Shown: in pieces, positions 4,265 to 63,203 of the stretch | Layout: each line of letters opens with the position of its first letter | Position numbering within the stretch: position 1 is the first letter of the stretch | Source: Tridacna crocea | Taxonomy: Eukaryota; Mollusca; Bivalvia; Cardiida; Cardiidae | Direction of reading: 5' to 3' | Length of the DNA: 64,000 bases | NCBI GenBank assembly: GCA_943736015.1 | Contig: OX031058.1 | Coordinates: forward strand, 18,873,001-18,937,000 | Notes under the pieces: generated by a model | What the model saw: only the letters and a program-made list of their open reading frames with translations | Databases searched by the model: none | Told to the model about the DNA's origin: nothing | Translations under genes and position numbers: made by a program

Positions 4265-4534
4265 TATGAGCCAGGCTCTGAAAATGGGAGGAGCTTAATG
4301 CATCTCCTTGGTGTAGGAAACCTAGCAGGTCAGCAAACAACCATGGAAAATCCATTTTGTCTAACAATCAACAGAATCGTGATGTAGACTGGTCCTTGGA
4401 CATACAGAAAACTGACTAAAAGCGAAAAGTTTCGGCCCAGGTCAGCCTGCGCGGACTGCGCAGGCTGACCTGGGCGGATACTTTTCGCAGATGCATTTAG
4501 CCCCCTTTTTCACAGAGCATGGTCCCTATATTTT
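4265..4534 (-). repeat. Family C MITE, full length
   Basis: Left end ATGAGCCAGGCTCTG, right end CACAGAGCATGGTCCCTAT. The 67-bp hairpin at 4422-4488 (arms begin GCGAAAAG) has the tip CAGCCTGCGC...GCGCAGGCTG and sits near the right end, so orientation is reversed relative to 19440-19709. Confidence 0.85.
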
Positions 4535-4790
4535 GAATCGGTGAAGAGAGATGCACCTACAAAAATGTATCGATAAGGATCAGTCTGCGCTGTCCGAGAA
4601 GGGTTACATGGGTATAAACCTATTTCAATTGGTAGATTTTATACATGTTTAAGGACCACTCTACCACATGATTCAGTCGATTGTTCATTAAAATGGATAT
4701 TAGTTAATTGTCCATGATTCTTTGATAACTGGCTCTGAATGATGCTTCATGGAGATCTACCCAACCTAGTTTTGCTAGAAAGTCGCTTGT
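4535..4790 (+). repeat. Family C MITE, decayed
   Basis: Carries C internal sequence (AAGGACCACTCTACCACATG, CATGGAGATCTACCCAACC) with only a trace of the hairpin near 4580-4610. It lies head to tail against the previous C copy. Confidence 0.5.
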
Positions 4791-4806
4791 CTATTTACAT
4801 GTTTGG

Positions 4807-5216
4807 TACATAGGCACTCGGTTTCCTTTTCTTTTACTTTTGTACCTTAACTCTTTTATTTCTGGATATCTTAAACACCAGTATTTAAGATATGCAGAAA
4901 TAGAAGAGTTAACCCCTACCCAAACAATCCCTGGTTTTTACGACCCCGAAATGAAAGCCTTTTGAAAACATTTTGGGAAAAGAGAAAATGCTGGTAACCA
5001 GTATTTTCTCCTTTTCCCACAATGTTTTCTGCCCAGCTAGAAACGAATTTCAATTTCTGAATTACGCTTAATTTGTTGTCCGCAAGTGCCTTCGATTTGG
5101 ATCGGTCTCAAATTTTCGTGTGGTTCAGAGTTAAGGTAGTACTTAAGATATGGAGAAATAGAAGAATAAGGTACATAAGTAAAAGACAAGGAAACCGAGT
5201 GCCTATGGTTTAGTAC
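4807..5216. repeat. Nested palindromic element
   Basis: Outer arms of about 40 bp at 4807-4846 and 5169-5216 (GGCACTCGGTTTCC against GGAAACCGAGTGCC) enclose an inner near-perfect 66-bp palindrome at 4847-4912 that starts and ends with TTAA. A TH-A copy (4909-5134) uses the right TTAA of that palindrome. Confidence 0.75.
4909..5134 (+). repeat. TH-A MITE, intact, inside a palindrome
   Basis: TTAACCCCTACCCAAACAAT at the left, GTGTGGTTCAGAGTTAA at the right. The left arm of the hairpin has lost one G of GGAG; otherwise it pairs fully. Confidence 0.85.
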
Positions 5217-5396
5217 AAAAATACTGGAAAAATCAAGGCTTTTTAAAAAATTTTTAATACAATAAAAACTAAAAAAAAAAAGCAGTTTCAATACAAAGTT
5301 TCCTTGTTTTATCCTCTTACCAGTCGATCGTGAAGGGAAAGGTACACATAGTTCTGTCTACAGACATGAGGTAGGAACTCACATTGTCATTTTCCT

Positions 5397-5483
5397 CATA
5401 TCGTCGGTTTACTTCCAAAACCTCGTAACTACAGCTTGAAACAAGCTGTAGTTACGAGATTTTAGAAGTAAACCGACGATATG
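5397..5483. repeat. Foldback hairpin, 41-bp arms
   Basis: Arms CATATCGTCGGTTTAC.../...GTAAACCGACGATATG differ at only two positions in 41, around a 5-base loop (GAAAC). No other copy is seen in the window. Confidence 0.85.
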
Positions 5484-6281
5484 CGTGGTGATAGAAAAAT
5501 CCAAAGAAAGGAAGAGTTTGATATGCGGGTCCCAGCGCCCCTCTCCGCCACGAATATAACACCATTTCAAAAGACTCACTATCGGAATAAAGTCCCGCAT
5601 AACGCGGCTAAAACCACTTGATAAATGACGGATTTATCGCAAATAAATGTTAGTCACGATAAAATAAGATGGAAATGGGCTTCCCAAATAACCGATGAAA
5701 GAAATATTAGAAATTGTAACCCCGATCGTAGCTTTTTAATTGATCTCCTCGGGATTCGTCGGTGTTTGAATGATATTCGATAGATTGGCTCAGCCGACGG
5801 GGCTGATAAGCAGGCGATGTAATGAGGGGCTAATGTTGTAACTGATAGGTCATTCGATACCGCCTGACGTTGATTCCCGTCCCTCGTAATTAAGTTCAGA
5901 CGAGACTTGATGGACACCTGATTTGACCTTCAGGTACTCTCACTGACATAACTATCCATGATTATAACCATTTGATGATGGAATCATAAACATGAATTAC
6001 GGTTTCAAACATAAGATGACTAAAATATTGTTTCAAGAGCAGAAGACTGCCTGTTATTTCTCCCTTTATCGTGATATTTTGAAAATGTATTGCATGAATA
6101 AAAAAATAGTCGGGGGGAGGGGGGGGGTAGGGTACGATGTCATGCTCTTTGCGTGTTGCGGGCCACATATCAAAATATGAAGAACATTTTGTTGAAAAAA
6201 TGGAGAGCTGGGAGAAACAAATATTTGTTCTGTCCAGACAATATTTCAATGCGCCAATTTACAACACTGGCGGGTGTGGGA
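5484..6281. other. Unique sequence without a gene
   Basis: Nothing recognisable. A G-rich run lies at about 6113-6130. The 87-codon minus-strand frame at 5654-5917 has no family resemblance and no convincing splice context. Confidence 0.4.
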
Positions 6282-6515
6282 TTTTGTGTGGCTCAGTGGT
6301 AAAGTGTAGGACTCTTGACCTTGAGGTCCCGGACTCGAGCCTCACAGAATCCACTGTGTCTTTCTTGGGAGTTTCCTAGGGCAACACATATTTAAGCCCT
6401 AGCCTATAACGATGATGAAGCCCAGAAATTCATGTCCATGAATATGTTAGCTGTGGTCGTAATATGAATGAGTTAGTGTTGAAAGCTGTGTAAAACACCA
6501 TTCAATAAGTGAAAT
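6282..6515 (+). mobile_element. tRNA-derived SINE
   Basis: Pol III A-box-like GTGGCTCAGTGGTAAAG near the start and a B-box-like GGACTCGAGCC about 45 bases later, followed by a non-tRNA body that ends near AACACCATTCAATAAG. The tRNA-like head cannot close a full cloverleaf, which fits a SINE rather than a tRNA gene. Confidence 0.6.
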
Positions 6516-6629
6516 ACGACACAGGCATCGACACTAACAGATCGTACAGTAAAGTAGTGAGCAGCAGCGAGTCTTCATGTTTATTTGATTTGACTGTAAG
6601 ATACAGACACACATCCTACAGACCGTTCT

Positions 6630-6853
6630 TTAATCCTATACCAAACAATCTCTGCTTTTAATGACCCTAAGGAAAAAGCCCCCTGAAAACATGGTGGGAA
6701 AAGGAGAAAATGCTTGTAACCAGCATTTTCTCCTTTTCCCACAATGTTTTCTACTCTTCCAAGGTCAAGTTTCAATCTTTGAGTCACGTCTCTTTAGTCG
6801 TATGCAAATGCTTTCAATTTGGCCTAGTCTAAAATTTTGTCGTTTGGTAAAGA
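6630..6853 (+). repeat. TH-A MITE
   Basis: Left end TTAATCCTATACCAAACAAT, right end GTCGTTTGGTAAAG (terminal GTTAA lost). The hairpin is intact apart from CATGGTGG opposite CCCACAATG and TGCTTG opposite CCAGCA. Confidence 0.85.
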
Positions 6854-6876
6854 CTGACTTTCTATAGATTTTCCCT

Positions 6877-8980: not shown

Positions 8981-9109
8981 ATAGACAGCATTTGAGCCTA
9001 TTGTCGAAATATTCGTTAGTAAACTAATTGTCGAAATTGTCATCAGCAAATACTTACAATCTGATATGTTCTTAACCCACAAGCTTCTAAGCACAACTCA
9101 AAGACCTTT

Positions 9110-9178
9110 TTCGGACGGTGTAGATCAAGATCAGATTGCACATAACAGTCAGTCTGATCTTGAATCTACACTGTCCGA
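9110..9178. repeat. Family F foldback
   Basis: CGGACGGTGTAGATCAAGAT pairs with its reverse copy ending at 9178. The tip is CAGATTGCAC...CAGTCTG. Confidence 0.75.
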
Positions 9179-9195
9179 TATGGCAATATATATTT

Positions 9196-9459
9196 ATGAC
9201 CCATTACGCAAAAAGGGACTTTCTGGGAACTGCGAAAAGTGTCAGCCCTGGTCAGCCTGCGCGAAATGCGCAGGCTGACCAGGGTTGACACTTTTCGCTT
9301 TAATCAATGACATTTTCCGTATGAAAAGTGATCATTGTACCTTGTTATACAATCATTTTTTAAATTGTCAACTTAAACTGGCCTGCACTATCGTTGATCT
9401 GTTGTCATCTTATTGATGTACAGAATTCCCGGATGGTCCCTTTTTGCGTGATGGGTCAC
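9196..9459 (+). repeat. Family D MITE, full length
   Basis: Inverted ends TGACCCATTACGCAAAAAGG and CCTTTTTGCGTGATGGGTCA. The hairpin at about 9233-9299 (arms GCGAAAAGTGTC...GACACTTTTCGC) has the tip CAGCCTGCGC...GCGCAGGCTG. Confidence 0.85.
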
Positions 9460-10119
9460 ATTTCTTTCGTAAAAAAAATATCTGTGAAAATTCAAAATTT
9501 GTTTTTTTTTTACTATCGACTTAAGATTTTCATTTGACTTATTTACCACCTTAAAAGTGGGTACATGTATTCAGAATTTTTACATCTCACCAAATTAAAA
9601 AAATACCCGGTATACATATCACTGAAATTCATATGAAAAAATAATACAAATCATCAATAATTAAGATTCATAAAATTACACAAAAAAAAATTTTTTGATG
9701 GTGTTCCCTTAAAAGACTACGTAGCCTCTTAAGGTATTTTTAGATTTGGCGCCAAAAATCATTAAGCATTTCGGGAATGTCAAGTGACTAGCACGTGACT
9801 CATAACGCTAAATTCCATTACATAACAAAAATGTAATAATTATTTCCATAATGTCTTCTTCGGACGCTATGTTTGAAACTTCGTCTGTGTATTCCTGTAA
9901 ACTATGTAAATGAGCGAATTGATCATCTAAAAATAGAATGTGTCTCCCGTTGGTGTCAACCTGGGCTATAGTTAATCTCTAATTTCTCATGTTGTCGAAC
10001 GGTTTTCGACTACTGGGGTTTTATGAATAAAAATTAAAAGGCTTTGGGAATATAAGGATGATTTTTTTGACATTTTTTGTAAAATTTTCATCCCTAAATC
10101 TGAAGGGCCACATTTAAGA
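9460..10119. other. Unique AT-rich sequence
   Basis: No gene or repeat copy recognised. Confidence 0.4.
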
Positions 10120-17256: not shown

Positions 17257-17506
17257 ATGAGCCAGGCTCTGACAAAAGGGGCTTGACGCATCTCCATGGT
17301 GCAGGATACTAAATTATCATATGGTCGTAAATCTGTAAAATTCATTTTGTCTAACAATCAACAGAAGCATTATGTAGCTCGTCCTTTGACATACAGAAAA
17401 TTGACCTATAGCGAAAGTTTTCGGCCAAGGTCAGCCTGCGCGGACTGCTGATCTGGGTCGATACTTTTCGCAGACGCATTAAGCCCCCTTGTTACAGAGT
17501 TTGGTT
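17257..17506 (-). repeat. Family C MITE
   Basis: ATGAGCCAGGCTCTGAC at the left, CATTAAGCCCCCTTG at the right. The hairpin at about 17408-17470 has lost the returning GCGCAGG of its tip. Confidence 0.75.
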
Positions 17507-17525
17507 AATTATGTATATATTTATT

Positions 17526-18330: not shown

Positions 18331-18424
18331 TATTATGTTAAATATATAAGCTGTCATAAATAAAGGCACACCGAATTTGAGAAAGATAACCCATAGGCTG
18401 CCAAGCGCGATTCACTGACCTTTT

Positions 18425-18495
18425 GCTGATAGTATAGACCAAGATCAGACTGCACAGAACGTGCTGTCTGATCTTAGATCTATACCGTGTGATAA
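18425..18495. repeat. Family F foldback
   Basis: GATAGTATAGACCAAGATCA returns as TGATCTTAGATCTATACC around AGACTGCAC...GTGCTGTCT. Confidence 0.7.
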
Positions 18496-18628
18496 GGAGA
18501 TAGTATACCCCCAATAGATGGCTTTGAAATAGCAATATTTGGGTTTCTGCTATCGAATATAAAATTTCAATTTAGTTACATAGCAAAATAAAGGTTAAAT
18601 CAATTGCTGCCTATAATTCTCCGATGTA

Positions 18629-19133: not shown

Positions 19134-19362
19134 TTAACCCATTACCACTCAATCCCTACTTTTGACGCCCCTGAGAAAGAAGCCTTTTGAAAACACTGTG
19201 GGAAAAGGAGAAAATGCTGGTAACCAGCATTTTCTCCTTTTCCCGCAGTGTTTTCTACCCTTCCCAGAGCAAATTTCTACATTTCAGTCACCTTTATTTT
19301 GTCGTCTGCAAATGCTTTCAATTTGGACTAGTCCAAAATTTTCTCGTGCGGTAATGATTTAA
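19134..19362 (+). repeat. TH-A MITE, intact, inside family C
   Basis: TTAACCCATTACCACTCAAT to GGTAATGATTTAA. The stem reads CACTGTGGG opposite CCCGCAGTG: the CATTG-to-CACTG change is matched in the other arm, and a second change (A to G) makes a mispair. Confidence 0.9.
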
Positions 19363-19439: not shown

Positions 19440-19709
19440 GCTGAGCCACTCTCTGTGATAAAGGAAACTAATGCAACCGCGAAAAGTATCGATTCAGGTC
19501 AGCCTGCGCAATTCGCGCAGGCTGACCTGAGCCGAAACTTTTCGTTATCGGGTCAATTTTCTGTATGCGCATGAACCAGTCTATCCCATGATTAAGTTGG
19601 TTAATCAAAAAAGTCGATATTATGGATCCATAAGTATGGGACGATCTACTTGGTAGCGCGGACCATGAAGCTGCATTAGGCCCCCTTTTGTCAGGGCATG
19701 GCTCATGTA
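19440..19709 (+). repeat. Family C MITE, full length
   Basis: Left end GCTGAGCCACTCTCTGTG, right end TCAGGGCATGGCTCATG. Perfect-tip hairpin at 19479-19547 (CAGCCTGCGC...GCGCAGGCTG), and GATATTATGGATCCATAAG in the interior. Confidence 0.85.
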
Positions 19710-19916: not shown

Positions 19917-20130
19917 ATATGATTGAGCCTGCTCTGTGAAAAGGGGGCTAAATGCATCTGCAAAAAGTATCGATTGAAGTCAGCCTGCGCTATCCGCGCA
20001 GGCTGACTCGAATCGATACTTTTTGCTATCTTTAATTTCGCCATGTCCAAGGACCATTCTAGCTCTAAATGTAGTCATTTATTCGACTGAATAGATTTTA
20101 TGAATACACACATATATATGATGCGTTGTT
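19917..20130 (+). repeat. Family C MITE, right end lost
   Basis: ATGATTGAGCCTGCTCTGTG at the left. Hairpin at about 19962-20030 (AAAAAGTATCGAT.../...ATCGATACTTTTT). It fades after GAATAGATTTTATGAATAC. Confidence 0.75.
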
Positions 20131-22411: not shown

Positions 22412-23889
22412 TGATCTCTCTTGCGCGCTTTCACCCACTCTCTCTCTCTGAAAATATTTATGCTTACATTTTCAACAAGTACAGTATTACGCATTTGGCC
22501 TGGAAATACCATGACTGAATAATAATGTACGTTCGTAGTGCAGACATCTGCTATATGATTCAACTTGGAATTTCGACTAAATTTACAGTATAAAACTTTC
22601 AGACTCATGGATAAATGTGTATTTTATATCACGATCAAAACTGTTTTGGGTATTTCACATGCTGATAATGGCAATTCGTCGAGTTTATCCTCCATCGCTT
22701 TTGCTCACAGTGTACAGTAATGTCATGCTGGATGATGTAAATCTAGTATAGATGAATTTGTAAATCGATATAAACAACGGATTCACCAAAGTAGCGTTAC
22801 TTATACCAATGTAGGGTATATACCAAATACCGGTATTATGTTATAACAATAACTTTCTTGGTGCTTTCCTTAGTGGTGTTTGAGTGTACTTGAGTCTTGC
22901 GGGAAAATTTGGTTTGTCGCAAGGACCGATTTTTGAATGAAGATGTCCACAATATTGCCATATACGAATCTCGCTTTTCCGAGTAACAAGGAAGTTTCAT
23001 CCATTCAATATTGAGGAATTATTCTTTCGCAGCGCGGACTTAGACCAAAGTTGTTTACTTTTCGAAGCAGTTCACTTGTATGTAAAAGAGAGAAAACATT
23101 TTAAGTGATCGACGCCTATTAAAACAGGGTTAATTTTACCGGATGCCCAACAGACAGCACCATCCGATTTTCTTTCATCTCTTTTTTCCTTTTCAATCAA
23201 TACTCTTCTTTTTTTTCTCTCTTCAACCCCCCGCCCCACCCCCTGTCTTTTTTCTATACAATATAAAGAAGAAAAATGTTCAATGTACTTGTCATTGTTG
23301 TAAAAAGAACTATTGAAATTGTCTTGTAGGGAAAAGATTGATTCTTGGTTGAGAGAACTTGTAAACCGACTCAATTTCAATTTATATGTAATAAAATATG
23401 TTTAAATTAACTGCGATATATTGTTGCTAACATTAAAGGTATATAACATAAGAAGTATTATGTTGCAGGAACGTCCCTGTTGTTTGTATTGGTTTCGACT
23501 TGCCTGAGATTTGGACATCGCGCATCAGAATCTGTATTTACCTGCCATAATCTAAGAAAAAAAATCTACGTCTTCCTCTCATTATTTTTTCTAAATTTGA
23601 AAATAATGCAACCGCTGATTGGCTGAATAAAGCGGCTTAACCTATCAGAAGATGTGTAACTTTTTAAATCTAGAAATACACTTGGAATGAAATTAAGAAT
23701 AGCTGGATACGGACTCAGAATATTTTTAAAGGAATTTTGAAGCAAAAACAAGCCCCAGAAATGTAGCTATAACATAATATTTGATAACCCTTATTCTGCT
23801 AAAAAAGTGAAATAGAAATTTTAAAGGCTATGGTTAAACCCCAAATGTCTCTTGATCAAAGGTCATTCTTTAGGGGAAAATATGTCCTT
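22412..23889. other. Unique sequence without a gene
   Basis: No recognisable exon. A purine/pyrimidine-skewed stretch lies at 23165-23255 (CCCCGCCCCACCCCCTG inside a T/C run). The TGATTGGCTGAATAAAGCG segment near 23613 recalls the G core without its ends. Confidence 0.4.
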
Positions 23890-23960
23890 TTCGGACAGTG
23901 TAGATCAAAGATCAGACTGCATGATTTGTACAGTCTGATCTTGATCTACGCTGTCTGCAA
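23890..23960. repeat. Family F foldback, intact
   Basis: CGGACAGTGTAGATCAAAGA returns as GATCTTGATCTACGCTGTC. The tip is AGACTGCATGATTTGTACAGTCT. Confidence 0.8.
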
Positions 23961-24669
23961 CAGGCCAGTGAGTCGCGCTAAGCAGCCTAAGGGTTAGGTT
24001 TTCCGTATAGTTCATGTTTTTTTCTTTCTACAACAAGTGGGGACAGTATCAAAATCATGGCATGTGCTAACTGAGAACTATTTGGATAACAAAACCTTTT
24101 CACAATTTTCATTTGAAGCAGAAGTTTCAAAAAGGAAGATAAGCTTTACGACGTTTCACCAAACGACTTCGATCGTAAAATTTATCTTTAAGACGACTTT
24201 ATCTGATTCTCTGAGAATCTATGATCCGTGTTTATCAGTTGCCATTTCTGTAATACAATGTTCGTTATGCTGGACTTGAATAAAGGGGGAGACATGCCCA
24301 TGAAATTGATCAGTAACCAAATATCATAGCGAATAAATCTACAGTCAGCATACTTCGTAAGGTAACACATGGGAATTTATTTACTGTTCGAACGTACAAT
24401 CTTCCAAAGTTAAATCACTGCCCCATTCCTTTAGGGCTGAAATGTTAGTTGGTTTTGTTTGCTTGAACTTTGCGAAATAAAGTGAACATCAGAACTAAAG
24501 TATTTTTTCCCTATCCCACATTTTTGAAGGCCTTCTTTCTTGTGGTCGTTAAAGCACTGGATTATTTGAAAAATGTTAACTCATATCACACAAAAATGAC
24601 TCACGTCCATGTCAAAAGACAGCTCCTAAGAATATCCTTGCCAAAAGAACATTACTTGTCAAAAGCATC
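23961..24669. other. Unique sequence without a gene
   Basis: Only a weak TH trace (TATTTTTTCCCTATCCCACA near 24500). This interval is 3' of the Pax1/9 main exon on the minus strand, where any further Pax1/9 exon would be expected. I could not identify one. Confidence 0.35.
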
Positions 24670-25096: not shown

Positions 25097-25914
25097 TCAG
25101 CTTTGTAAATACATCGGTTGGACCGGTTGTTTCATACTATAGTAGTTAAAATTATAATTTTGTCCTAATTGGTGATTGTTCATGGACTCACATGGCATTG
25201 GGGCTTGGTGTGACATCGTTTGGGGTGTTGTCCTGAAGCCCAGAATGTCATTTACGGAATGGGAGGAAGCCCAAGCACGCATCATAGACGGAGTAACACA
25301 GTTTGACATTTGTGGCTTATTGTTCATTTGATGATTTAATTGCGTAAAACCACTCTGAGTTGGCATTGTCGGTGGCGGACATGATTGCATAGTTGGTGGT
25401 GGGCACGAATACGGGTACATTTGAAACTGGGGATTGTATAAGGGACCTGGTGCCGGGCCACCAACTGGTACATTCTTTGGGTCAAAATTCGTGTTTTGGT
25501 TTGTAGGAGATCCACTGTTGCCTATTTTATTCCTTAATATTCGACTAATGGAGCTAACTGACGGTACATTATATTTGTCACAAACTCCGTCCGCGAGGAG
25601 TTTATCCCGAATTTCCCAGGCGAATATTCCAGGATCACGTTCCTTATAAAGCTTTATATGTTTCACAACGTTTGGTGTCGTCACTCTTGGCTTGCTGCCA
25701 CCGATGGCGCCCGGTAGTATAGATCCGGTCTCGTTGTATCGGGCGAGAATCTTGCTTACACAACCGTGGGAGACCCTTAACTGGCGGGATATATCACAGG
25801 GCCGCACTCCCATTTGGGCCAACTCTATGATCCGCAGTCGTATTGCATTGGGGAGCGGCCGGCCGTTGACAAAGACACCTCCAAGTTGATTTACCTCTCC
25901 AAATGTTGTTTGTT
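25097..25914 (-). CDS. Pax1/9: Pax1/9 paired-box transcription factor, main exon
   Basis: DNA-binding transcription factor of Pax group I (vertebrate Pax1 and Pax9, fly Pox meso), acting in the nucleus. The exon starts after a minus-strand acceptor (pyrimidine-rich ...CTACTTCAG, AG at 25916-25915) and opens with two bases of a split codon, then [20 protein letters not shown]. The paired domain spans roughly residues 7-134 (counting a two-residue N-terminus) and includes [19 protein letters not shown] and the class signature [20 protein letters not shown], ending [11 protein letters not shown] Pro/Met/Gln-rich linker follows, then the octapeptide HSVNDILG at about 220-227 with the Pax9-like context [14 protein letters not shown]. 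No homeodomain follows, as expected for this group. The frame runs to TGA at 25097 (about 273 residues). That is shorter than vertebrate Pax9, and an internal donor at 25191 could instead splice on. Confidence 0.96.
25186..25191 (-). promoter_or_regulatory. Possible internal splice donor of Pax1/9
   Basis: GTGAGT on the minus strand after ...CCAT, 16 residues past the octapeptide, leaving phase 1. From memory, vertebrate Pax9 also splices shortly after the octapeptide. Use of this site would drop the last 31 codons and require a further exon below 25097. Confidence 0.35.
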
Positions 25915-26098
25915 CTGAAGTAGACAGTGATAGAAGCTGATTAAGAAAATAGACATCTTATATGCATGTTATATAATTATTAAATTATTCTAGAGGTAAA
26001 GTTTTTCATGCAAATCAGCAGATTATGTACTGGAATGACTGACAGCGAAAATTACAAAACTTGAATATGGTCATCACATTTTCACATTTTTGTGCGAC

Positions 26099-30458: not shown

Positions 30459-30718
30459 TGACCCGTCATGCAAAAGGGACCTTCTGGGAACTGCAAAAAG
30501 TGTCAAGCCTTTTCAGACTGCGCGAATTTCGTAGGCTGACCCGGGTTGACACTTTTCGCTTTCAATAATGACATTTGCTGCATGAAATGCGGTCATTGTA
30601 CCTTGTTTTACGATCATTTTTGAATTATCAGCTTAAACTGACCTGCACTATCGATGGTATGTTTCATATTATTGATGTACAGAATTCGCAGGTGGTTCCT
30701 CTTTGCGTGATGGGTCAC
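30459..30718 (+). repeat. Family D MITE, full length
   Basis: TGACCCGTCATGCAAAAGGG to TCTTTGCGTGATGGGTCA. The hairpin tip is eroded (CAGACTGCGC...CGTAGGCTGA). Confidence 0.85.
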
Positions 30719-37348: not shown

Positions 37349-37616
37349 AATTGGAGTGCAACACGCGAAAAGGTGCATTCGGACATTTGCGTAAAGTGTC
37401 GTCTCGGATTAGCCTGCGCAATCCGCGCAGGCTAATCCGAGACGACACTTTACGACTACATTAGATTTTGTGCTACAGTAGACTTGCGTAAAACAGAAAA
37501 TCACATAAAATCGGAAAGTGTCGTTTCGGATTAGCCTGTGCGGACTGCACACGCTGATCCGAGACGACACTTTACGCAAATGTCTGAATGACCCTTTTCG
37601 CGTGTTGCACTCCATA
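37349..37616 (+). repeat. Family E MITE, full length, two hairpins
   Basis: TTGGAGTGCAACACGCGAAA and its inverse GCGTGTTGCACTCCA. Hairpin 1 at 37390-37454 (perfect arms, tip TTAGCCTGCGC...GCGCAGGCTAA). Hairpin 2 at 37513-37574 (tip partly decayed). Confidence 0.9.
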
Positions 37617-38104: not shown

Positions 38105-38419
38105 CCATAATTATTTGATAAAGTGCTTGATATAATCCATCAGGGAGATACAATAAACTCCCCTTTACCAGAGCATGGATTATTTCTGTTTTCCTATCTG
38201 GTCTTATACTGTTTATTTAATAATTAGACTCTCGTATTTACCAGTAGGTCCCAGCACTGAAAGACATACTTGCGGTGGACCTCCATCCCTGTTTAATCTG
38301 ATTACAAAATTACATTAGTATTCTGATAATTTAAACCATTGCAGTTTTACATTTTATTTTTGTAAATTTTGACATCAGTGGAGGGAAAAGATGAAGCAGG
38401 CGGACTTTTGCACTAGAAT

Positions 38420-38668
38420 TGGCCTGTAACACTTGAAATGGTGCAATCGGGCATTTGCGCAAAACCTCATTTCAGATTAGCCTGTGCAGTCCCCGCAGGC
38501 TAATTGGAGACGGCACTTTTCGCCTTTACATAGTATAGTCCCAAGTATCCTCAAAACACAAAATAACATAATAACGAAAATGTGTCGTTTTCGGATTAGC
38601 CTTCGTACTCCGGGGCGACACCTTACGCAAATGTCCGAATGCCCAATTTTTGCATGTTGTAAGCCATA
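38420..38668. repeat. Family E MITE, diverged
   Basis: GCCTGTAACACTTGAAATGG to TTTGCATGTTGTAAGCC. Hairpin 1 tip TTAGCCTGTGC...CGCAGGCTAA. Hairpin 2 is collapsed. Confidence 0.75.
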
Positions 38669-38798
38669 TTAATAGTTTACAGTAATAGAAATTCTGTTTC
38701 TGTTGCTAAACTCTTATTGTTCGGGTTTAATAACCTTCCCAAGTTTTACTAGTACAATCTTGTAAGATTTATATTGCAAAAGGAATCAATCCATTGTC

Positions 38799-38872
38799 GT
38801 TTTTTTCATCTATTACAAAAGGCAAAACTGATGTGCACATCAGTTTTGCCTTTTGTAATAGATGAAAAAAAC
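38799..38872. repeat. Perfect 74-bp palindrome with no spacer
   Basis: Left arm GTTTTTTTCATCTATTAC..., centre ATGTG|CACAT between 38835 and 38836, right arm exact complement through GATGAAAAAAAC. No mismatch in 37 base pairs. No second copy in the window. Confidence 0.95.
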
Positions 38873-49675: not shown

Positions 49676-49750
49676 CCTATGCGGCCAGTATGGATCAAGA
49701 TCAGACTGCACAAAACGTGCAGTCTGATCTTTATTCTTCACTGTCCAACT
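49676..49750. repeat. Family F foldback
   Basis: GTATGGATCAAGATCAGACT with the tip AGACTGCAC...GTGCAGTCT. The right outer arm is partly decayed. Confidence 0.75.
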
Positions 49751-50925
49751 TGTTGAGACATTCAGAACAAGACAACATTTTGAATTACAATTATTTTGGG
49801 TTCCTTTCATGTGTTTACTCGGCGTTTTAAGGGTTAAGATATGCATGCACAAACTGTGCAGACTATTTCCTGCTCTATTGAATTAGAAAGATTAAGTAAG
49901 ACAGGATTGTCCGTTAGCTCAGTTGTTGTCATTTCTGCACAGACATTTTTTTTCTCTCGATCTTCCTCCTCTCTGGGTATGAAGCAGTTATTTTTTTCTG
50001 TAGACTTTGGATGGTTTCAAGCAGTTATTTTTTGTTTCGTGGAACATTATCTGATGACAGGTTTGTAGAATTATGATATTTTATCTATTTTATTGTTTTA
50101 TTCATGTCTCTTGATATTTCAGGGCGTAGATAGATATGAGGCAAAAATCATCATGAATCTTTATCTTCATGTGTTCTTTGTAGAAAAAAAAAAAACCTTT
50201 GTGTATGATAGTTGTTTCTCCCCGGTTGATTTACTTGTAAAGCTACTGCGTGCACACAGGAATAGTCGTCACCTCTGGACACTGTTTTATACTAGTAACA
50301 GAAATTCCAGGAACGTATACATGTATAGGTTCTGTGATACAACTGTGATACACAGTCAACAACAAGTTACCGGACAAACCAATCAGGGATGTTGAAAAAG
50401 TTTTTCTTTTCTTAAGTCTGTGTGCGTTTATACCTTGCCTCCATGTAACGATGTCTCTTTCTTTTTTTACTTCAGACTTCAAGTTCATTATTTGCCGTCA
50501 AGTGGATAGCAAAATATATGCATGTTTTTCAAGACTTTCGACAAATTTTCTTTTTACATGGTTAACTTCCACTAAAAAAGAATGAAATCTATCCTGATTT
50601 CTTAAATGATCTGGTTATTACATGCAACTTCCCGGTGCATTAAAACTTTTTTGTCCAACAGGTTCTTTGAATACTTTGAAAAGTCAACTTTCAGTTGACC
50701 TGTTTACGCAAAAACTACACACCAGAAGAAGACTCTGGACCTTTTTAATCGTCGATATCTTGCAGCTATGAATAAAAAAACATAATTTAGCTAATACAAA
50801 GTTACATAACTTTTACAAATACAATATAAAAATACAGAAATGAGATTCCATTATGTGTAACACTATATCTACTGCAGAGAGTGATAGTTTTTAAGAAACA
50901 TAATGTTAAAAGATAGTTTGAATCA
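49751..50925. other. Unique sequence without a gene
   Basis: Nothing recognised on either strand. Confidence 0.4.
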
Positions 50926-51145
50926 TCTGCAAAAGATACCGACCCTGGTCAACGTACACAGTCCATGTAAGCTGACCAGGGTCAAAAATTTTTTTCTATT
51001 GGTAAAATTTTCCACAAATCACGGTAAAATTATGCCTCGTTATTCTGTCGTTTTGTGGACACGATGGGTCCGTATTTTGTGACAATCTTGTATAATATGT
51101 TTCTGGGAAATGGTAGATCCCGTATACCAGAGCACAGCTCATAGG
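50926..51145 (+). repeat. Family C MITE, diverged
   Basis: Hairpin ACCGACCCTGGTCA.../...TGACCAGGGTC with a decayed tip, and the right end CAGAGCACAGCTCATAGG. It directly precedes a D element. Confidence 0.6.
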
Positions 51146-51405
51146 TGACCCGTCACGCCAAAAAGGGCTTTCTGTGAACTGCGAAAAGTGTCAACCCTGG
51201 TCAGACTGCGCGAATTGCGCAGGCTGACCAGGGTTGATACATTTCGCTTTTATGATATTTTCTGTATGAAAAGTGGTCATTCTGCCTTACAATACAATCA
51301 CTTTTTAACTATTAACTTCAATTGACCTGCACTATATCTATGTTCAGTTTTCATCTAACTGATGTACGGAATTCCCAGATTGTCCATTTTCGCGTGACGG
51401 GTCAC
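51146..51405 (+). repeat. Family D MITE, full length
   Basis: TGACCCGTCACGCCAAAAAG to TTTTCGCGTGACGGGTCA. Hairpin tip CAGACTGCGCGAATTGCGCA. It is followed within five bases by an E element, making a C-D-E array. Confidence 0.88.
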
Positions 51406-51409
51406 ATAT

Positions 51410-51680
51410 AATTGGAGTGCAACACGCGAAAAGGGTCATTCGGACATTTGCGTAAAGTGTCGTCTCTGATCAGCGTGTGCAGTCCGCACAGGCTACTCCG
51501 AAACGACACTTTCCGATTTTATGTGATTTTCTGTTTTACGCAAGTCTACTGTAGCAGAAAATCTAATGTAGTCGTAAAGTGTCGTCTCGGATTAGCCTGC
51601 GCGGACAGCGCAGGCTAATCCGAGACGACACTTTACGCAAATGTCCGAATGCACCTTTTCGTGTGTTGCACTCCATATAT
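51410..51680 (-). repeat. Family E MITE, full length, two hairpins
   Basis: Opposite orientation to 37349-37616. Hairpin nearest the right end is perfect (tip TTAGCCTGCGCGGACAGCGC). The left hairpin has a mutated arm (ATCAGCGTGTGC). Confidence 0.9.
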
Positions 51681-51882: not shown

Positions 51883-52116
51883 TTAAATTTAAAAAAAAAA
51901 AGGAAAAAAAATGAAACTTTTTTAAGTGTTTAATATTATAACCATTTCTTCTGGTCATTTACATGGATGTTAATTTCCTGCCTTGATTCCTACCTGTTGT
52001 TCATCTCTCACCTATTTATTTGTAGCACATGTACCAAGTTCAACAGAGTTTTGAAATAATCAAAACTATTTTACGGTATCGGTGGAAATATATCCATCTG
52101 ACTTCATTTATATAAA

Positions 52117-52378
52117 AATGGACCATCCTCTGTGAAGAGAGGCTACAATGCATTCGCGAAATGTATCCATCCTTGTCAGCTTGCGCAATCAGGGCAGGCT
52201 GACATGAGTCGAAACATTTTACTAGGTGCAAGTTGTCTACATGACTAAGGACATTCTACCTCATGACTCAGTTGGTTGTCGGGCAAAATGGATTTTATGG
52301 ATCCATAAATGTATGACGACTTTTTTTGTATATTGCATAACGGAGGTGCGTTAAATCCCCTTTTTCCCACAGCTTGGT
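52117..52378 (+). repeat. Family C MITE, interrupted at its right end
   Basis: CCATCCTCTGTGAAGAGAGG, hairpin with CAGCTTGCGC...GGCAGGCTGA, GATTTTATGGATCCATAAAT, and right end CCACAGCTTGG running into the TTAA of the next TH-A. Confidence 0.7.
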
Positions 52379-52607: not shown

Positions 52608-54028
52608 ATGTGTCTCTCTGAGAACTAAGTTTTATAAAAATAAGTATGTTATAATAACTAGAGTAAAGTACATCAAAATATGGCAAGATAAATAAACCAT
52701 AAATCAAACAAGCTAGTTTTGCATTGTTGGACCGGGGACAAAAGTTACAGAAAATCTAAAAACCACCTCGATACATTCAGTGACATTATAATGACAATGC
52801 GTCTAACTCATTACGACGAAAAATTGTATCGATAGCTCAAAAATCAATTTAATAACACTAGGAAATATGAATTACCTTTACTGAATACACAAAATGAAAT
52901 CCTAACATTTTAAATACATGCTAGGTAAATAACATATTTTTTTCTAAAAAATCAGGAACAACTTCCCTTTTTTCATTTCCATTATAAAATTTCCCAAACA
53001 TAAGTTGTACTGCTGACGAAAGAAAAATATGAAGCTTTCAGATTGTGTATTGTTAAAGAATTTCAAATTAATTTGTGGTTATTTCTTTTAATGTGCCACA
53101 GAGTTGTTCTAAATACCTGGCTTAAACCGTTGGAGTCTCTTTTCAGCAATTTTATATGAATGCCTAATAGATTTGAAAGCTTACGCTTGCCATAGTCATG
53201 GTCGAAATTTTTTATCACATCTTAGACTATTTCAAACCGCTCGGAACTGTCTCTGATTACAAATTTAATTGGCTCAAGTCGTTAGCTATAAGAATTATTG
53301 TTATTGTGAAACAAGAGAAAATACCTAATAGCAAAAAAAAAATCTTATTTCGAAGTGACGAATCATAGAGATATGTGTTATCTAGGAGGCAGCCGAAAAA
53401 TATGAAATTGGATAAACTTGCGTATAGACGTCTGCTTTTTCCATTCATCACTTATTCCCCTGTTAAAAGCTAAGGCCAAATGTATACACAATTCGGGGTT
53501 TCTTTGATGCCTATGCCGTTTAGTAATTAAATTTGCCTGATTGCTTTATCATATGTCGAACCAGCTTAATCGCGATGTATGTGAGAAAAATACGACCTCG
53601 CCCGACCTTTCTGTATATTTTCCCAAGATGCATTTCTGTCTGAATTTAAATATTGATTGGACGTTGACATTAAAGTCCTTGTTTCAGTATGCAAATGTGG
53701 AGGACTCTTTAAATCGGAAAAGCGAAACTATAACTATGTCAGGCTTATTGTCACATGTAGTTTTCACAATTAGCAACTTATTTTCCCGAAATTCTTGCAA
53801 AGTCTGATAATCACTTCCGAAACATAGGTTTCAATCAATTATTATTTTTTTTTGCATAATTAAGGTTTGATGTTAAATGCTGCAACTACTTAAGACTATA
53901 ACATATCTTTCAGACCTACTTTCTTTAAAATACACGTGATAAAAACGACATTTATTATCACTTAGACAACGACTTTGAAAAAAATGACCAGCATGATAGC
54001 TCTCAACTTTGTTTCGTGGAGAAAAAAT
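52608..54028. other. Unique sequence without a gene
   Basis: No repeats or exons recognised. Confidence 0.4.
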
Positions 54029-54287
54029 GGCTTGCATTACGCCAAAAGGGGCTTCCGGACATTTGCGTAAAGTGTCGTCTGAAATAAGCCAGTCCGCGCA
54101 GGCTAATCCGAAACGGTACTTTCCATTTTTCTGCATTTTTTTGTTTTGCACAAAGCTATTGAAGAACAAAATCTAATGTAGTCGTAAAGTGCCGTCTCGG
54201 ATTAGCCTGTGCGGACTGCGCAGGCTGATCCGAGACAACACTTTACGCAAATATCCGATTGCCCCTTTTCGCGCGTTGTAAACCAAA
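54029..54287 (-). repeat. Family E MITE
   Basis: GCATTACGCCAAAAGGGGC to CCTTTTCGCGCGTTGTAAAC. The right hairpin is intact (TTAGCCTGTGCGGACTGCGC). The left hairpin has lost part of the tip. Confidence 0.8.
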
Positions 54288-56342
54288 TTTTGTAGGTTGG
54301 TACTATTATTTGCCAAAAACATCTCAGCAAAGAGGACAAGTTCAAAGAACAGTTGACAAAAACTCAACAAAAAAAAGCCATATGGGAAAAATCCAGAATA
54401 GCCGTGTTTTATAGCTATATACACATTGACTAAAAGACACCGTTTAATCAAGCTGGAACAATTTGAATTTTACTGGGACAGCACCATGCATATTTTAACA
54501 CTTTTCAAAACTTTCAGCATGATGAACAGCATCATATCTGAAGTTTTGGTTATCAATCGGCAAACGTTTACTTTGTGGGATTGTTCCGATTTATGTTTAT
54601 TAAGCAGATTTTTCAGCGTGCATTTAGCTCATATTTATAGTGGTATTTATCCCATTAAACCAAGTTTCCTATCAGTTTATAATTTCCTGTACACAGCTAA
54701 GGGCTATGGCTGTCCTTATCAAGCCCAAAACCGTTGTCCATTACAACCAAATTAGCGGCCAACCTATTTGCATCAATTTGTACTGTATTAGAAATTCAAG
54801 CCAAGTTCTCACTCTGACCTGAATGCTTTATGAAAATTATTTTGACCCCCATGCATCAGCCGAAGTATTTTCTTAGTTTTCAAAATTTTTCAGCGCCGAA
54901 TTCTCATCTGTCACTTACAGCATTTACTCGACCGAATCGTGAATTTAATTTCCATAAATAAGAAACGACTTTTCAAAAAATATGTGTTACGTGTAATGTT
55001 ATGAGTTGGGAGGCTTCCAGCAGAATTGTTATTACTCAATTCAATAGCAGACAGGATTAAAAGATATGATTAAAAGCTGCATTTGCAATATAAGGGCCTA
55101 ATGACGCTTTTGGACGGTAGGGAGGAGGAAAAATTGCAGTAATATTTTTCAATATGTTCGTTTAAAGCTCATATCTGAAACACATAAAAAGAAGTCGTGA
55201 GTGCATTTTTCATATTTATTTTCTCTTTAACCTGATAATTTTCTTTTTACAGAGAATAATTATACAACTTCACTTTTCGTGAATTTGTCACTGCTTTTAT
55301 TACTATTTTTATTCAAGGCTCTTTTTTTCTGACCATATTTTCAAAAATATTAACACGGGTATTTCACTTCTTGAATTATATGTGCTACCCTAACTGTCGG
55401 ATTTCGATTTGTTTCCATCATTGTTTCGTGTAAAAGAAAGCTTTCTCACTTGGTAATTGATGTAATTCAAAAACTATGCAAAACGTCTCAAACATCTTCC
55501 CCACTCTCTTGCGTGATGATTATCGTTGTTTCGATGACAAATCTATATAGACGGTATGCAGTTATCACATTTTCATTATTTTTATTATTCAGTCTGTTTA
55601 CTTGTGATTACTTATTTTAGATTAATTTTGATATTTTTTAAATGTATGATAAATACGTCAATTGTAGGAAATTTAAATGTAATTAATCAACAAATTTAAA
55701 CATGGCCTGGCAAAAGATAAATCTTAAAGATAAGAGACATTTTTGTGCGATCGTATGTCTACACATAAGACTATATATCTTTCTCGATTGATCGAAAATT
55801 CTTTACTAAAGTTTAGTTTATTTATTTAGATATCTATTTTCTAAGAGTTACTGTATTTGTAAAAATGTAATTTTTGTCGATATATTTCACAACGAATTAT
55901 AATTGTTCTTAAATTATCATTGCTTTTTTTTCCTTTGCACTTACCGAGGTTTTTAATCACGCCATACACACACACATACGTACATACATATATTCTTTTT
56001 CCTCTGCTTCATTAAAATACCTCTGTGACCTATAAAGCTGATTTTTAAATTATTTATGCAAATGACAAATATGTACAAATGTGCAAATCAATTTTACAGC
56101 ATTTCTTAGAAACATTAGATTTGATTCACGATATTCGGATATTTGGAGGGAAGTCGGGTTTTCTCATCATTTCGATAAGTAATGCAATAATTTCTCTTTG
56201 AATTAGAATTGTTATTGAATAATAATTTAGTGTCGCCCGATGAAGTGATTTGTCCGTTAAAGAAAAATCGTATGAAACCCATATCACAAAAAGTAGTACA
56301 TATTCACGGTTTCTTTTTACTTTGTCGAGATGCCACAACTCT
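54288..56342. other. Unique insertion-free sequence
   Basis: The frame at 54426-54755 (109 codons, plus) has no recognised motif. A short CA-rich microsatellite trace lies near 55968-55990. Confidence 0.4.
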
Positions 56343-57185: not shown

Positions 57186-57417
57186 ATTACCCCATTGCCA
57201 CACAATCCCTACTTTTGACGATCCCTGAGAAAGAAGCCTCTTGAAAACATTGTGGGAAAAGGAGAAAATGCTGGTAACCAGCATTTTCTCCTTTTCCCAC
57301 AATGTTTTCTACCCTTCACAAAACAAATTTCAAATTCTAAGTCACTTTTATTTTGTCGTCTGCAAATGCTTTCGATTTGGGCAGACCTAAAAATTTTGTC
57401 GTTTGGTAATGATTTAA
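57186..57417 (+). repeat. TH-A MITE, intact
   Basis: ATTACCCCATTGCCACACAA to GGTAATGATTTAA. The 65-bp hairpin is perfect. Confidence 0.9.
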
Positions 57418-57456
57418 CAAGCAAGTTAATAAAGCAACAGCAAAAACGTTCCAATT

Positions 57457-57690
57457 TCTGTGACAAGGGGGTTTAATGTACTTGCGAAAAGTATCGACCC
57501 AGGTCAGCCTGTGCAGTCCGCGTAGGCTGACCTGGGCCAAAACTTTTCGCTGGTGTTCTCTTTTCTGTATACCCACGGGCCATTCTACCCTCAGATTCAG
57601 TCATTTATTAGACTAAGTGAATATTATGGATCCGTGATTATATCATGACTTGTATCACGAAGCCCCCTTTTGTCAGAGCATGCCTCAATG
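57457..57690 (+). repeat. Family C MITE, left end short
   Basis: Starts GTGACAAGGGGGTTTAATG. Hairpin at 57484-57550 (tip CAGCCTGTGC...GCGTAGGCTG), right end GTCAGAGCATGCCTCA. Confidence 0.8.
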
Positions 57691-57727
57691 TATTTTATAT
57701 CTTATTATTATATTGGAAAACAATAAA

Positions 57728-58586: not shown

Positions 58587-58589
58587 TCT

Positions 58590-58922: not shown

Positions 58923-58949
58923 GCTCGGCCCCCTTCTTCTGGTAAGTAG

Positions 58950-59440: not shown

Positions 59441-59458
59441 CCCCCCCCCCCCCCCCCC
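59441..59458 (+). repeat. Poly-C tract
   Basis: Eighteen consecutive C residues followed by a CA-rich stretch. Confidence 0.95.
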
Positions 59459-59605
59459 ATCCACACACACTTTATATAATTGACTTTGGGTGAAATGAGC
59501 TGCAGGTTCGAATTTCCGCTCGTTGTGTCCGACGTAGAGTTAAACGTAAATCTACTAAGGAGCTTGGTGTTTTGCCTCTCAAAGAAAAAAATGCCCTCAC
59601 ATTTC

Positions 59606-60492: not shown

Positions 60493-60714
60493 TGAATGCT
60501 AGTTAAAGAGATGGGTTTAAGTCGTTGTCGGGTCTCATTCTAGATATAATATCGATTCTGTACCAATTGCATAGATGCCTTTCTTTCTTTTTCAATTTTG
60601 AAAATTGTGCATTCTATTAAAAGCTCTTACGATAATGATCGTCCAACTTAAACTTTATAGACGATGTAAAACACGGTAAAAGCAGCTACTAACCAGAGAC
60701 TATAAGCTCCCAGA

Positions 60715-60795
60715 ATGAGCTACTCTCTGCGAAAAAAGTAGTTGATAGCTCTACAAGCACTATCGACTCACGTCAGCCTGTGCAGTCCGTAGTCT
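60715..60795 (+). repeat. Family C fragment
   Basis: GAGCTACTCTCTGCGAAAAA and CACGTCAGCCTGTGCAGTCC. It breaks before the returning arm, followed by a TH-A terminal fragment (ACGAGACGACAAAATTTTAA). Confidence 0.6.
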
Positions 60796-60824
60796 TTACG
60801 AGACGACAAAATTTTAACATCTAC

Positions 60825-61052
60825 TTAAACCATTACCACACAATCCCTACATTTGACAACCCTGAGAAAGAAGCCTTTTAAAAACATAGTGGGAAAAGGA
60901 GAAAATGCTGGTAACCAGCATTTTCTCCTTTTCCCACAATGTTTTCTTCTCTTCCTAAAACAAATTTCAATTCTTAGGCAATTTCATTTTGTTCTCTGCA
61001 AATGCTTTCAATTTGGACCAGTCTAAAATGTTGTTGTTTGGTAAAGAGTTAA
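60825..61052 (+). repeat. TH-A MITE, intact
   Basis: TTAAACCATTACCACACAAT to GGTAAAGAGTTAA. One stem mismatch (CATAGTGGG). Confidence 0.9.
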
Positions 61053-61106
61053 AGTATTTGCAGAGGGCATATCTAAAGCTGCTCTAATGATGGGACTAGT
61101 CCTTCG

Positions 61107-61335
61107 ATTACCTCTTTACCAAACGACCAAATTTTAGACTGGTCTAAATTCAAAGCACTTGCAGAGGACTTAGTGAACGTAACTCAAAAGTCGAAATTTG
61201 TTTCCAGCAGAATTGAAAACATTGTGGGAAAAGGAGAAAACGATGGTTAACAGCTTTTACTCTTTTTCCTACAATGTTTTCAAAAGGCTTCTATTTCAGG
61301 GCCGTAAAAACCAGGGACTCTTTGGTAAAGAGTTA
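61107..61335 (-). repeat. TH-A MITE
   Basis: GATTACCTCTTTACCAAACG to GGTAAAGAGTTAA. The tip is decayed (CGATGGTTAACAGC). It lies 13 bp from the next copy, which points the other way. Confidence 0.88.
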
Positions 61336-61348
61336 ACTGAACAGTGTT

Positions 61349-61576
61349 TTAACCCATTACCACACAATCCCTACTTTTGACGTCCCTGAGAAAGAAGCCT
61401 TTTGAAAACACTGTGGGAAAAGAAGAAAATGCTGGTAACCAGCATTTTCTCCTTTTCCCACAGTGTTTTCTACCCTTTCCAGAACAAGTTTCTATTTTTC
61501 AGTCACCTTTATTTTGTCGTCTGCAAATGCTTTCAATTTGGACCAGTCCAAAATTGTCTCGTGTGGTAATGAGTTA
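61349..61576 (+). repeat. TH-A MITE, intact
   Basis: TTAACCCATTACCACACAAT to GGTAATGAGTTAA. The stem has CACTGTGGG opposite CCCACAGTG, a fully compensated change from the usual CATTG/CAATG. Confidence 0.92.
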
Positions 61577-61704
61577 ATCCCTGTCTCAACTTTATTTCAG
61601 TCATATCACGGCGATATATCACATCCCCGTCTGCTCGAATGTTTCCACAATACTAAGGCTTGAGATATTTAATGTCTTGCCCACGGACGATCCAACGAAA
61701 AATC

Positions 61705-61882
61705 CAGGGCCCGTATTCACCAACCATTCTTAAGAACCTTCTTTGTCTTAGTCTCCAGAATTTTCTACATTTTGTAAGTTACACAACTTCTGATTGGCTA
61801 AACCAGTGTGATACTTACAAATTTCGAAAACCTTGGAGAATAAGACTATGAATATTCTCAAGAATGGTTGGTGAGACTCCCG
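61705..61882. repeat. Family G foldback
   Basis: CCCGTATTCACCAACCATTC to GAATGGTTGGTGAGACTC. The centre TCTGATTGGCTAAACCAG has lost its returning arm. Confidence 0.75.
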
Positions 61883-61924
61883 ATTAGGAGCCTTTCACTT
61901 TAGCCACGGAGAACGCTCTCGAAT

Positions 61925-62055
61925 TTCAAAGATCACAAATTATTGCAGAAAAGCGAGAAAACGCTGATTACCAGCAGTATCATTTTTTGCCCAATATCTT
62001 ATCAAAAGTCTTCTTCATGAAGGTCTAGAAAATATACGATTTTTTGTTAAAAGAT
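61925..62055 (-). repeat. TH-A remnant
   Basis: GAGAAAACGCTGATTACCAG and CAAAAGTCTTCTTCATGAAG. It decays into the start of the 123-codon frame at 62054. Confidence 0.5.
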
Positions 62056-62631
62056 GAAATGGGCAAAGGTTTTGGAAAATTTACTGGAAATTGTAGAATC
62101 TATTCTTGAGAGCACTTGTGGCGATTGTCCAATATTCAGTCAATTCAGTCATTTTTTCTTCTTGCCGCAATACTTTTTTTTAAAGACAGTCTGCTGGAAA
62201 ACGACAAAAGATCGTTTACTGCAGGTAACGCGTTATCTGTACAGAATGATTGTTGATATCTATAGGCAAAGGGTAGAAAATGGAAACAAACCGCTACAGA
62301 TGGCAGTCGAATTATGCGTTCTTCAATTGTTTCCCCAGTATTGTTTCACCGGTAAGCGATCTGGCGCCCAAACATCACCGGATCACCGTTTCCGCCAACC
62401 GCGCAAATTTGGCAATGACCCGTGAATAAGCGGAAAAATGTTTTCAGAGAAAATTCTCGAGAATCTATTGTACAGACGAAATGATGGCAATGAAAATATT
62501 GTGATATGTGAGAGGCGGGGAGCCAGCCGCAAACAATAACGAACGTCGAACAGTTGCTTTTAGCATTTTTATTTCTGTAAAATTCATATCCGAAAGGAAC
62601 TTTGTTTCCAATGGCGTCCTTCTTTGATAGA
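62056..62631. other. No supported gene
   Basis: Contains a 123-codon plus-strand frame (62054-62425) with two donor-like sites (GCAGGTAACG at 62220, CACCGGTAAGCG at 62348). No domain recognised, so not called. Confidence 0.35.
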
Positions 62632-62910
62632 TGAGTCACACACTGTGAAAAGGGGCCTTAACCCTTTCCAAAACAACAAATTTTGGACTCTTCCAAACCG
62701 AAAGAGTTTGCAGATGACAATTCTTGATTGGGAGAAAATTGCAGAAAGTTCTCAAAAAGGGTAGAAAACACTGTGGGAAAAGGAGAAATTGCTCGTAACG
62801 AGCAATTTCTCCTTTTCCCACAGTGTTTTCAAAGACTTTTACTGCAGACACGTAAAAACCAGGGCTTCTTTGGGAAAAGATTAATGCATCTCCGTGTTGC
62901 ATTGTCCCAA
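62632..62910 (+). repeat. Family C left end split by a TH-B insertion
   Basis: GTCACACACTGTGAAAAGGGGCC is followed by the TH-B at 62658-62884 and resumes TTAATGCATCTCCGTG. Joining across one TTAA restores the normal C sequence order (compare 4272-4310). Confidence 0.75.
62658..62884 (-). repeat. TH-B MITE, intact
   Basis: TTAACCCTTTCCAAAACAAC to TTTGGGAAAAGATTAA. The stem CACTGTGGG/CCCACAGTG is compensated, and the tip TTGCTCGTAACGAGCAA is perfect. Confidence 0.92.
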
Positions 62911-62953
62911 GAAAGACATCAAAATAAAACCTAGGGCAGATTTTCAACAGAAT

Positions 62954-63203
62954 CTGGCCTGCAACACGCGACAAGGTGTATCTACACAATTGCGTAAAGT
63001 GTCGTCTCAGATCAGCCTTTGCATTCCGCTCAGGCTTATCCGAAAGTACAAGTTCCATTTTTTTTATGTTATTCTGTTTTTCGCAAGTCTACAGTAGCAC
63101 AAAATCTAATGTAGTGCCGTCTGCCGTCTCGGATCAGTGCTGATCCGAGACTACACTTTACGCAATTGTCAGAATGCTCCTTTTCACGTGTTGCAAGCCA
63201 TAA
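62954..63203 (-). repeat. Family E MITE
   Basis: TGGCCTGCAACACGCGACAA to TTTTCACGTGTTGCAAGCC. The right hairpin is reduced to a tight GTCTCGGATCAGTGCTGATC turn. The left hairpin is diverged. Confidence 0.8.

Follow-up and report, generated by a model that had tools for sequence, protein, structure and literature searches.

Tc1/mariner-type (Stowaway-like) miniature inverted-repeat transposable elements (MITEs) insert at TA, are short and non-coding, and reach very high copy numbers. In the coral Acropora, the CMITE families have different terminal inverted repeats (TIRs), TTAA targets and a common internal region conserved more strongly than the TIRs; these elements measure about 100 bp and the internal region 75 bases, and the words hairpin, stem-loop and secondary structure are absent from the main text of that report (PMC2872659). 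The ends of piggyBac carry 19-bp subterminal palindromes, which are described as bound by two cysteine-rich domains (PMC11707139), and DINE-1 has a subterminal stem-loop whose stem differs among species, from which its authors infer compensatory change (PMC2374699). Here we analyze a 64-kb stretch of the giant clam Tridacna crocea genome ("the window", contig OX031058.1, G000:C3:18873001-18937000), in which four families of short elements, C, D, E and F, carry related GC-rich hairpins behind their ends.

The coral CMITEs are the closest known kind, as far as they are described in the text cited. Here too several families share an internal module that is better conserved than the TIRs (between C, D and E), and F likewise has TTAA targets and CCC ends; an earlier note on this DNA, which held that no standard MITE description explains the pattern, was therefore too strong. 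The CMITEs differ in that the shared part here is a subterminal 67-bp hairpin, the elements are about 205-263 bp long, and C, D and E target TA/ATAT, with TTAA in F only. DINE-1 is similar in its subterminal stem-loop with compensatory change, but the stems described for it are 7-11 nt, whereas here stems of 31 bp, one in C and D and two in E, follow 37-bp terminal repeats. The palindromes reported for piggyBac and piggyBat are 19 bp, whereas here the arms alone, which are known from sequence only, are 31 nt. C, D and E resemble Stowaway-like MITEs in TA target, short non-coding sequence and very high copy number, but their ends start with TG and match no own end among the 3' ends of 20 Tc1 and 14 pogo frames. 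Four features set the group apart: the length of its subterminal palindrome, TA/ATAT targets, copy number, and the sharing of the hairpin with a TTAA family. No title or abstract among the best-ranked literature matches describes this element group; in the literature text covered, one of six sequence words was matched, in Borrelia or tick work, and the other five were unmatched.

Descent of families C, D and E

The hairpins reported for C, D and E are real. AGCCTGCGC occurs 17 times in the window where 0.03 occurrences are expected, and 12 of the 17 pair into six perfect palindromes AGCCTGCGC-N5-GCGCAGGCT. Genome-wide (1.05 Gb in 31 contigs) there are 19,970 exact tips of this form, and a reversed control gave 0. 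The loop, thought earlier to vary from 4 to 6 nt, is 5 nt in all six perfect tips, and the D hairpin lies where it had been placed except for one base (9232-9298 rather than 9233-9299). The unit common to the three families is the whole 67-bp hairpin (31-nt arm, 5-nt loop, 31-nt arm) and not the tip only: it is homologous over its full length, with in-register arm identities of 28/31 for C-D and 25/31 for both C-E and D-E. A full-hairpin profile found 41 copies at 25 bits or more, 18 in the window and 23 in 200 kb elsewhere (stretches chosen at round coordinates), from which we extrapolate to about 120,000 copies per genome. Viral contigs yielded three GC-rich matches to the tip, with unlike flanks, and none to an E pattern; seven scattered matches in bacterial genomes, judged without their flanks, are regarded as chance.

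C, D and E are very probably subfamilies of a single non-autonomous MITE lineage of about 260 bp, as judged from their sequences, and they share the tip by simple descent. The earlier note had taken their flanks to be unrelated and had named homology outside the hairpin as the observation that would speak for simple descent. Such homology was found, in the outer flanks and in all inner flanks but one. The pattern TG-N14-AAAAGG-N15 stands outside the hairpin in all three families, and the distance from end to hairpin is 37 bp, with one-base exceptions in single copies. In-register identity of the outer 37-nt consensus strings is 18/37 for C-D (p 0.001), 18/37 for C-E (p 0.0017) and 22/37 for D-E (reached in 0 of 20,000 shuffles). 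Over the inner 30 nt, taking for E the flank of only one of the two hairpins, the values are 18/30 for C-D (p 0.0003), 17/30 for C-E (p 0.0016) and 19/30 for D-E (p 0.0002). The consensus strings are short and several were entered by eye. All three families inherited one end, consisting of the 37 bp just described followed by the 67-bp hairpin; C and D retain a single hairpin, and E carries one in each arm of its 263-bp inverted repeat.

Hairpin and flank have also stayed together. When 48 hairpins were typed independently by outer flank and by hairpin, the two types agreed in 44 of the 45 copies with a clear flank (30 E, 11 C, 3 D). The one discordant copy, L011 6206, has had its flank replaced and for that reason scores at the threshold. 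Exact chimeras number zero genome-wide both for an E flank with a C hairpin and for a C flank with an E hairpin, compared with 6,774 exact E/E junctions. Since exact C/C junctions were also zero in the 276 kb examined, the zero chimera counts are more telling for E than for C.

The lineage appears to insert mainly at TA inside ATAT-like targets. The E core GGAG...CTCC is 261 bp long in all 21 copies compared (one in the window, 20 fetched), and 13 of these have identical four bases on both sides (11 ATAT/ATAT, 2 ATTT/ATTT); the remaining eight have GTAT/ATAT (1) or AATT/ATAT (7). Seven of the 21 (L028-L032, L046 and the window copy at 51413-51675) carry an additional AT (AAT in L046) at one end, between TGGAG and the flanking TA, as though the cut had missed the end by a little; the listed exact E ends include similar cases. 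Among 18 D copies read by eye, ATAT is found on both sides in 5, AAAT on both sides in 1, and ATAT on the right side in 12. The C copies have diverged too far for their target site to be called firmly. E thus has the general features of a MITE: it is short, non-coding, of fixed length, bounded by TIRs and present in high copy number, and it has target-site duplications (in the 13 copies above). Exact E ends number 3,339 genome-wide. Among the matches listed (about 100 of the 3,339), 26 hand-paired copies have both ends, with the words starting 248-249 bases apart, and there are no end pairs 1-20 kb apart. Helitrons have neither TIRs nor target duplications; both were found here, which does not fit a Helitron.

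The best 40 of 3,869 first-look candidates for E (window copy included) are 99-100% identical, compared with 84-89% for the best 40 of 3,818 for D and 78-91%, many of them partial, for the best 40 of 4,325 for C (both excluding the query). By these identities E includes a recent burst, D is of intermediate age and C is old.

Between families, the hairpin is more conserved than the outer flank by 8-16 points when gaps are allowed (0.707 vs 0.550 for C-D, 0.641 vs 0.547 for C-E and 0.635 vs 0.558 for D-E, with chance levels of 0.50 and 0.47). Ungapped identities of the two arms, compared with the outer 37 bp, are 0.74 and 0.66 vs 0.40 for C-D, 0.64 and 0.52 vs 0.40 for C-E, and 0.67 and 0.60 vs 0.47 for D-E; the bootstrap intervals of the difference all lie above 0.11, though this contrast is inflated because the flanks contain gaps. 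At the consensus level the contrast has p values of 0.0003 (C-D), 0.011 (C-E) and 0.07 (D-E). Within C the gapped contrast is small (0.751 vs 0.687). Within 18 D copies (16 of the 40 best-scoring places and two from the window), mismatches to the consensus number 57/1,202 in the hairpin and 276/3,490 elsewhere (Fisher p 1.5e-4).

The pairing of the arms is maintained across copies. Of the cells in 35 distinct hairpins, 84.8% are paired, and both sides have changed in 61, compared with 25.4 in shuffled data (0 of 500 as high) and at most 20 in slid alignments. The alignment holds 36 of the 48 hairpins, the 12 with indels or low scores having been left out, which favours pairing, and related copies enter the count many times.

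Several observations weigh against the reading developed so far, of one TA-inserting lineage with a specially maintained palindrome. For the other E hairpin, the inner flank agrees with C at 9/30 (p 0.50) and with D at 15/30, which is weak (p 0.016), and the outer C-D and C-E identities are moderate and based on short consensus strings. Of eight C ends inspected by eye, only three have TA before TGAG, two have CA and three have other bases, and the E target duplication is ambiguous: the flanks of most copies fit a TA duplication within an ATAT target, but may instead reflect a 4-bp ATWT duplication. Within E, conservation of the hairpin is barely above that of the outer flank (gapped 0.773 vs 0.740), and the ungapped right arm (0.665) does not exceed the outer flank (0.676). 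Pairs with a double change number 14, compared with 11.7 in shuffled data (71 of 500 as high). Finally, no transposase with C, D or E ends was found in the 3' stretches of 20 Tc1-type, 14 pogo-type and 12 piggyBac-type frames.

Family F and the sharing of the hairpin

F is a distinct element of about 205 bp with ends TTAACCCTTAGG...GGATAAGGGTTAA. The consensus of 12 aligned copies reads TTAACCCTTAGGCTGC...AGGATAAGGGTTAA, from which single copies vary, and it has TTAA at both ends and CCC termini, as in piggyBac/TTAA MITEs. That F carries a similar tip was confirmed: the tip is exact at 49703-49725, exact copies number 21,913 genome-wide (control 0), and the F hairpin is related to that of C, D and E by profile and shares its 67-bp layout.

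A related hairpin therefore appears to stand behind two kinds of end, and on the sequences compared an old transfer and deep common descent are about equally likely explanations. A single passage of the hairpin between the TA-target lineage of C, D and E and the TTAA-target, piggyBac-like F, where it would now serve two kinds of transposase, is a possibility we hold tentatively. The profile of C, D and E matches the F consensus hairpin at 24.7 bits over positions 1-66, when the best of 60,000 random palindromes scores 17.8 and none reaches 20, and the F arms agree with those of C, D and E at 22/31, 21/31 and 21/31 (p 5e-5 or less), while the F outer flanks have no in-register similarity to theirs (p 0.41-0.85). 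A consensus is, however, easier for a profile to match than an individual copy. The scores of ten individual F copies range from 5.3 to 21.5 bits, with four at 15 or more, a level also reached by 3 of the 60,000 random palindromes. The reverse search, with an F profile against nine C, D and E hairpins, was weaker (best 14.2 bits, E at most 4.6, two unmatched). When shifts are allowed, the outer flanks of C-F (p 0.046) and E-F (p 0.040) hint at a weak ancestral similarity of the ends, too weak to use, and no intermediate family was found.

It is more doubtful that the 67-bp palindrome is a portable module, binding a transposase or host factor, that crosses superfamilies, is used by two transposon lineages with TA and TTAA targets, and is better preserved than the ends of those lineages. 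If this were true, a portable palindrome would have had a part in raising copy number in one genome to around a hundred thousand.

Upkeep and proposed role of the palindrome

The likeliest role of the hairpin is that of a subterminal transposase-binding palindrome. It would act as duplex DNA, offering a palindromic site beside the terminal repeat to a dimeric transposase, and it would stay symmetric in transposing source copies while ordinary insertions decay. The hairpin arms begin with GCGNAAAG, which closely resembles the terminal motif CGCGAAAAGG, so that the right arm would carry a further, inverted copy of this motif.

An unlikely alternative to selection for such a site is mutational upkeep, in which one arm is rewritten from the other by template switching or cruciform repair. 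Arms do change together across families. The loop of D reads inverted relative to those of C and E, and two of the 18 D copies (L061 and L062) have the loop AATTC, the reverse complement of GAATT, without the tip mismatch usual in D; the tip apparently can flip, and may have done so in these two copies. But the D copies show 44 single changes and one compensatory double, where 0.95 is expected, and the arms thus drift independently after insertion. Because the changes in D arms are almost all single, insertions seem to decay freely, and the source copies would be where symmetry is restored or selected.

We consider it very improbable that the hairpin is an RNA module, a small-RNA precursor or a stem recognised by the host. 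Folded as a single strand with DNA parameters, the 67-nt stem-loop reaches -41.2 kcal/mol (z -16.7), a very stable structure, and the whole E element is computed to fold as one long hairpin; against this, nothing in the window scores as high as the gathering threshold of any Rfam family, and the covariation is equally expected of a duplex palindrome. An exchangeable cassette, moving among otherwise unrelated C, D and E as the earlier note proposed, is hardly credible, even though the hairpin is the part best conserved between families and the D loop is inverted, because the outer flanks are homologous, hairpin type follows flank type with one exception that has a replaced flank, and exact chimeras of the two C/E kinds are missing genome-wide; what survives of that proposal is that the hairpin outlasts the terminal repeats and that F has a related one.

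Other elements and significance

Coordinates of the element copies and hairpins are collected in Table 1. The D element at 9195 interrupts an F element directly after the F hairpin (9107-9460). At 51144-51675 a D and an E element are separated by 6 bp, and this E copy is near-identical to many copies in the genome. A 286-aa frame with a paired-box (PAX) domain (E 5e-66) lies at 25097-25957 on the minus strand.

Table 1. Element copies, hairpins and perfect tips of families C, D, E and F in the window
Feature	Position	Strand	Remarks
E element (TGGAGTGC...GCACTCCA)	37352..37614	+	263 bp, inverted repeat; arms 121 nt, centre 21 nt, hairpin per arm
E hairpin, perfect tip	37389..37455	+	67 bp
E second hairpin of element 37352..37614	37511..37577	-	67 bp, imperfect
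E element, second	51413..51675	+	263 bp; hairpins 51450-51516, 51572-51638
E element, diverged	54025..54288	+	hairpins about 54065-54124 and 54182-54248
E-like element, diverged	38414..38669	-	hairpin 38457-38523
E-like element, diverged	62955..63202	+	hairpin about 62992-63058
D element (TATGACCC...GGGTCACA)	9195..9460	+	hairpin 9232-9298, near left end only
D element, second	51144..51406	+	hairpin 51181-51247
D third copy, hairpin	30493..30559	+	
C element (TGAGCC...; opposite end diverged)	4267..4526	-	TA beside both ends; hairpin 4422-4488, toward right end
C element, approximate ends	17258..17508	-	hairpin partly deleted, about 17411-17471
C element	19442..19705	+	hairpin 19479-19545
C element, aligned part	19923..20115	+	hairpin 19960-20026
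C element, aligned part	57451..57704	+	hairpin 57484-57550
C element, aligned part	52095..52366	+	hairpin 52156-52222
F hairpin region (TTAA-target family)	49677..49752	+	exact tip 49703-49725
F hairpin region	9107..9183	+	D element at 9195 directly after
F hairpin region	18420..18497	+	
F hairpin region	23886..23962	-	
Perfect tips AGCCTGCGC-N5-GCGCAGGCT	4444-4466, 9254-9276, 19501-19523, 19982-20004, 37411-37433, 51594-51616		
Full hairpins around the six perfect tips	4422-4488, 9232-9298, 19479-19545, 19960-20026, 37389-37455, 51572-51638		

The most abundant hairpin of the window belongs to a further family, A (GAAAACATTGTGG...; GAAAACATTGTGGGAAAAGGAGAAAATGCTGG), which accounts for 24 of the 35 hairpins listed (e.g. 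19189-19255, 57243-57309 and 61404-61470); its hairpin is about 67 bp, and the element has TTAA-like ends TTAACCCATTACC...GGTAATGAGTTAA. A and F agree at 16/31 in the arms (p 0.0036) and 18/37 in the outer flank (p 0.002). A was left out as a relative: a similar match to A (15/31, p 0.007) comes from an unrelated hairpin, and the profile of C, D and E misses A. A perfect palindrome at 38799-38872, with 36-nt arms and a 2-nt loop, resembles none of C, D, E and F when arms are compared, but matches A at 15/31.

The search for an autonomous partner drew on lists of 150 Tc1-type (DDE_3), 118 piggyBac-type and 150 pogo-type (DDE_1) transposase frames; the 3' stretches given above were scanned, and the 5' side in L110 only. 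The C/D/E hairpin was absent from the 3' stretches of the 20 DDE_3 and 14 DDE_1 frames, and the 12 piggyBac 3' stretches held no hairpin match. A C-like end (19.4 bits) beside an intact Tc1 transposase at L064 was rejected as a partner: in L110, a wider stretch around L064, the Tc1 element's own repeats lie at 449-480 and 1946-1977 and the C-like end is beyond them, which makes it a neighbour. An E end at L065 and a weak C-like match at L104 (11.7 bits) were also taken as neighbours because they are oriented away from the frame. At L079 an F element lies beyond a Tc1-like end, and L066 and L068 hold two A elements. A stop-free 347-aa Tc1-type transposase frame occurs with the same score at four places, including G000:C7:39960294, one of which (L110) adjoins a C-type end.

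The hairpin is real, very abundant and mostly explained by descent, and what remains unusual is a palindrome conserved beyond the ends of its elements and shared with F. Classification of MITE families relies mainly on the terminal repeats, and here the subterminal palindrome outlasts those repeats between families. Because it also recurs behind another target type, end recognition may depend on an internal site, as is suggested by work on piggyBac-type transposases in the text cited (PMC11707139). Many copies of E, the youngest family, are 99-100% identical, and they would be natural substrates for testing internal-site recognition. A survey of bivalve transposons, in the part cited, left MITEs unclassified (PMC10294476), so modules like this hairpin could be overlooked in molluscs.

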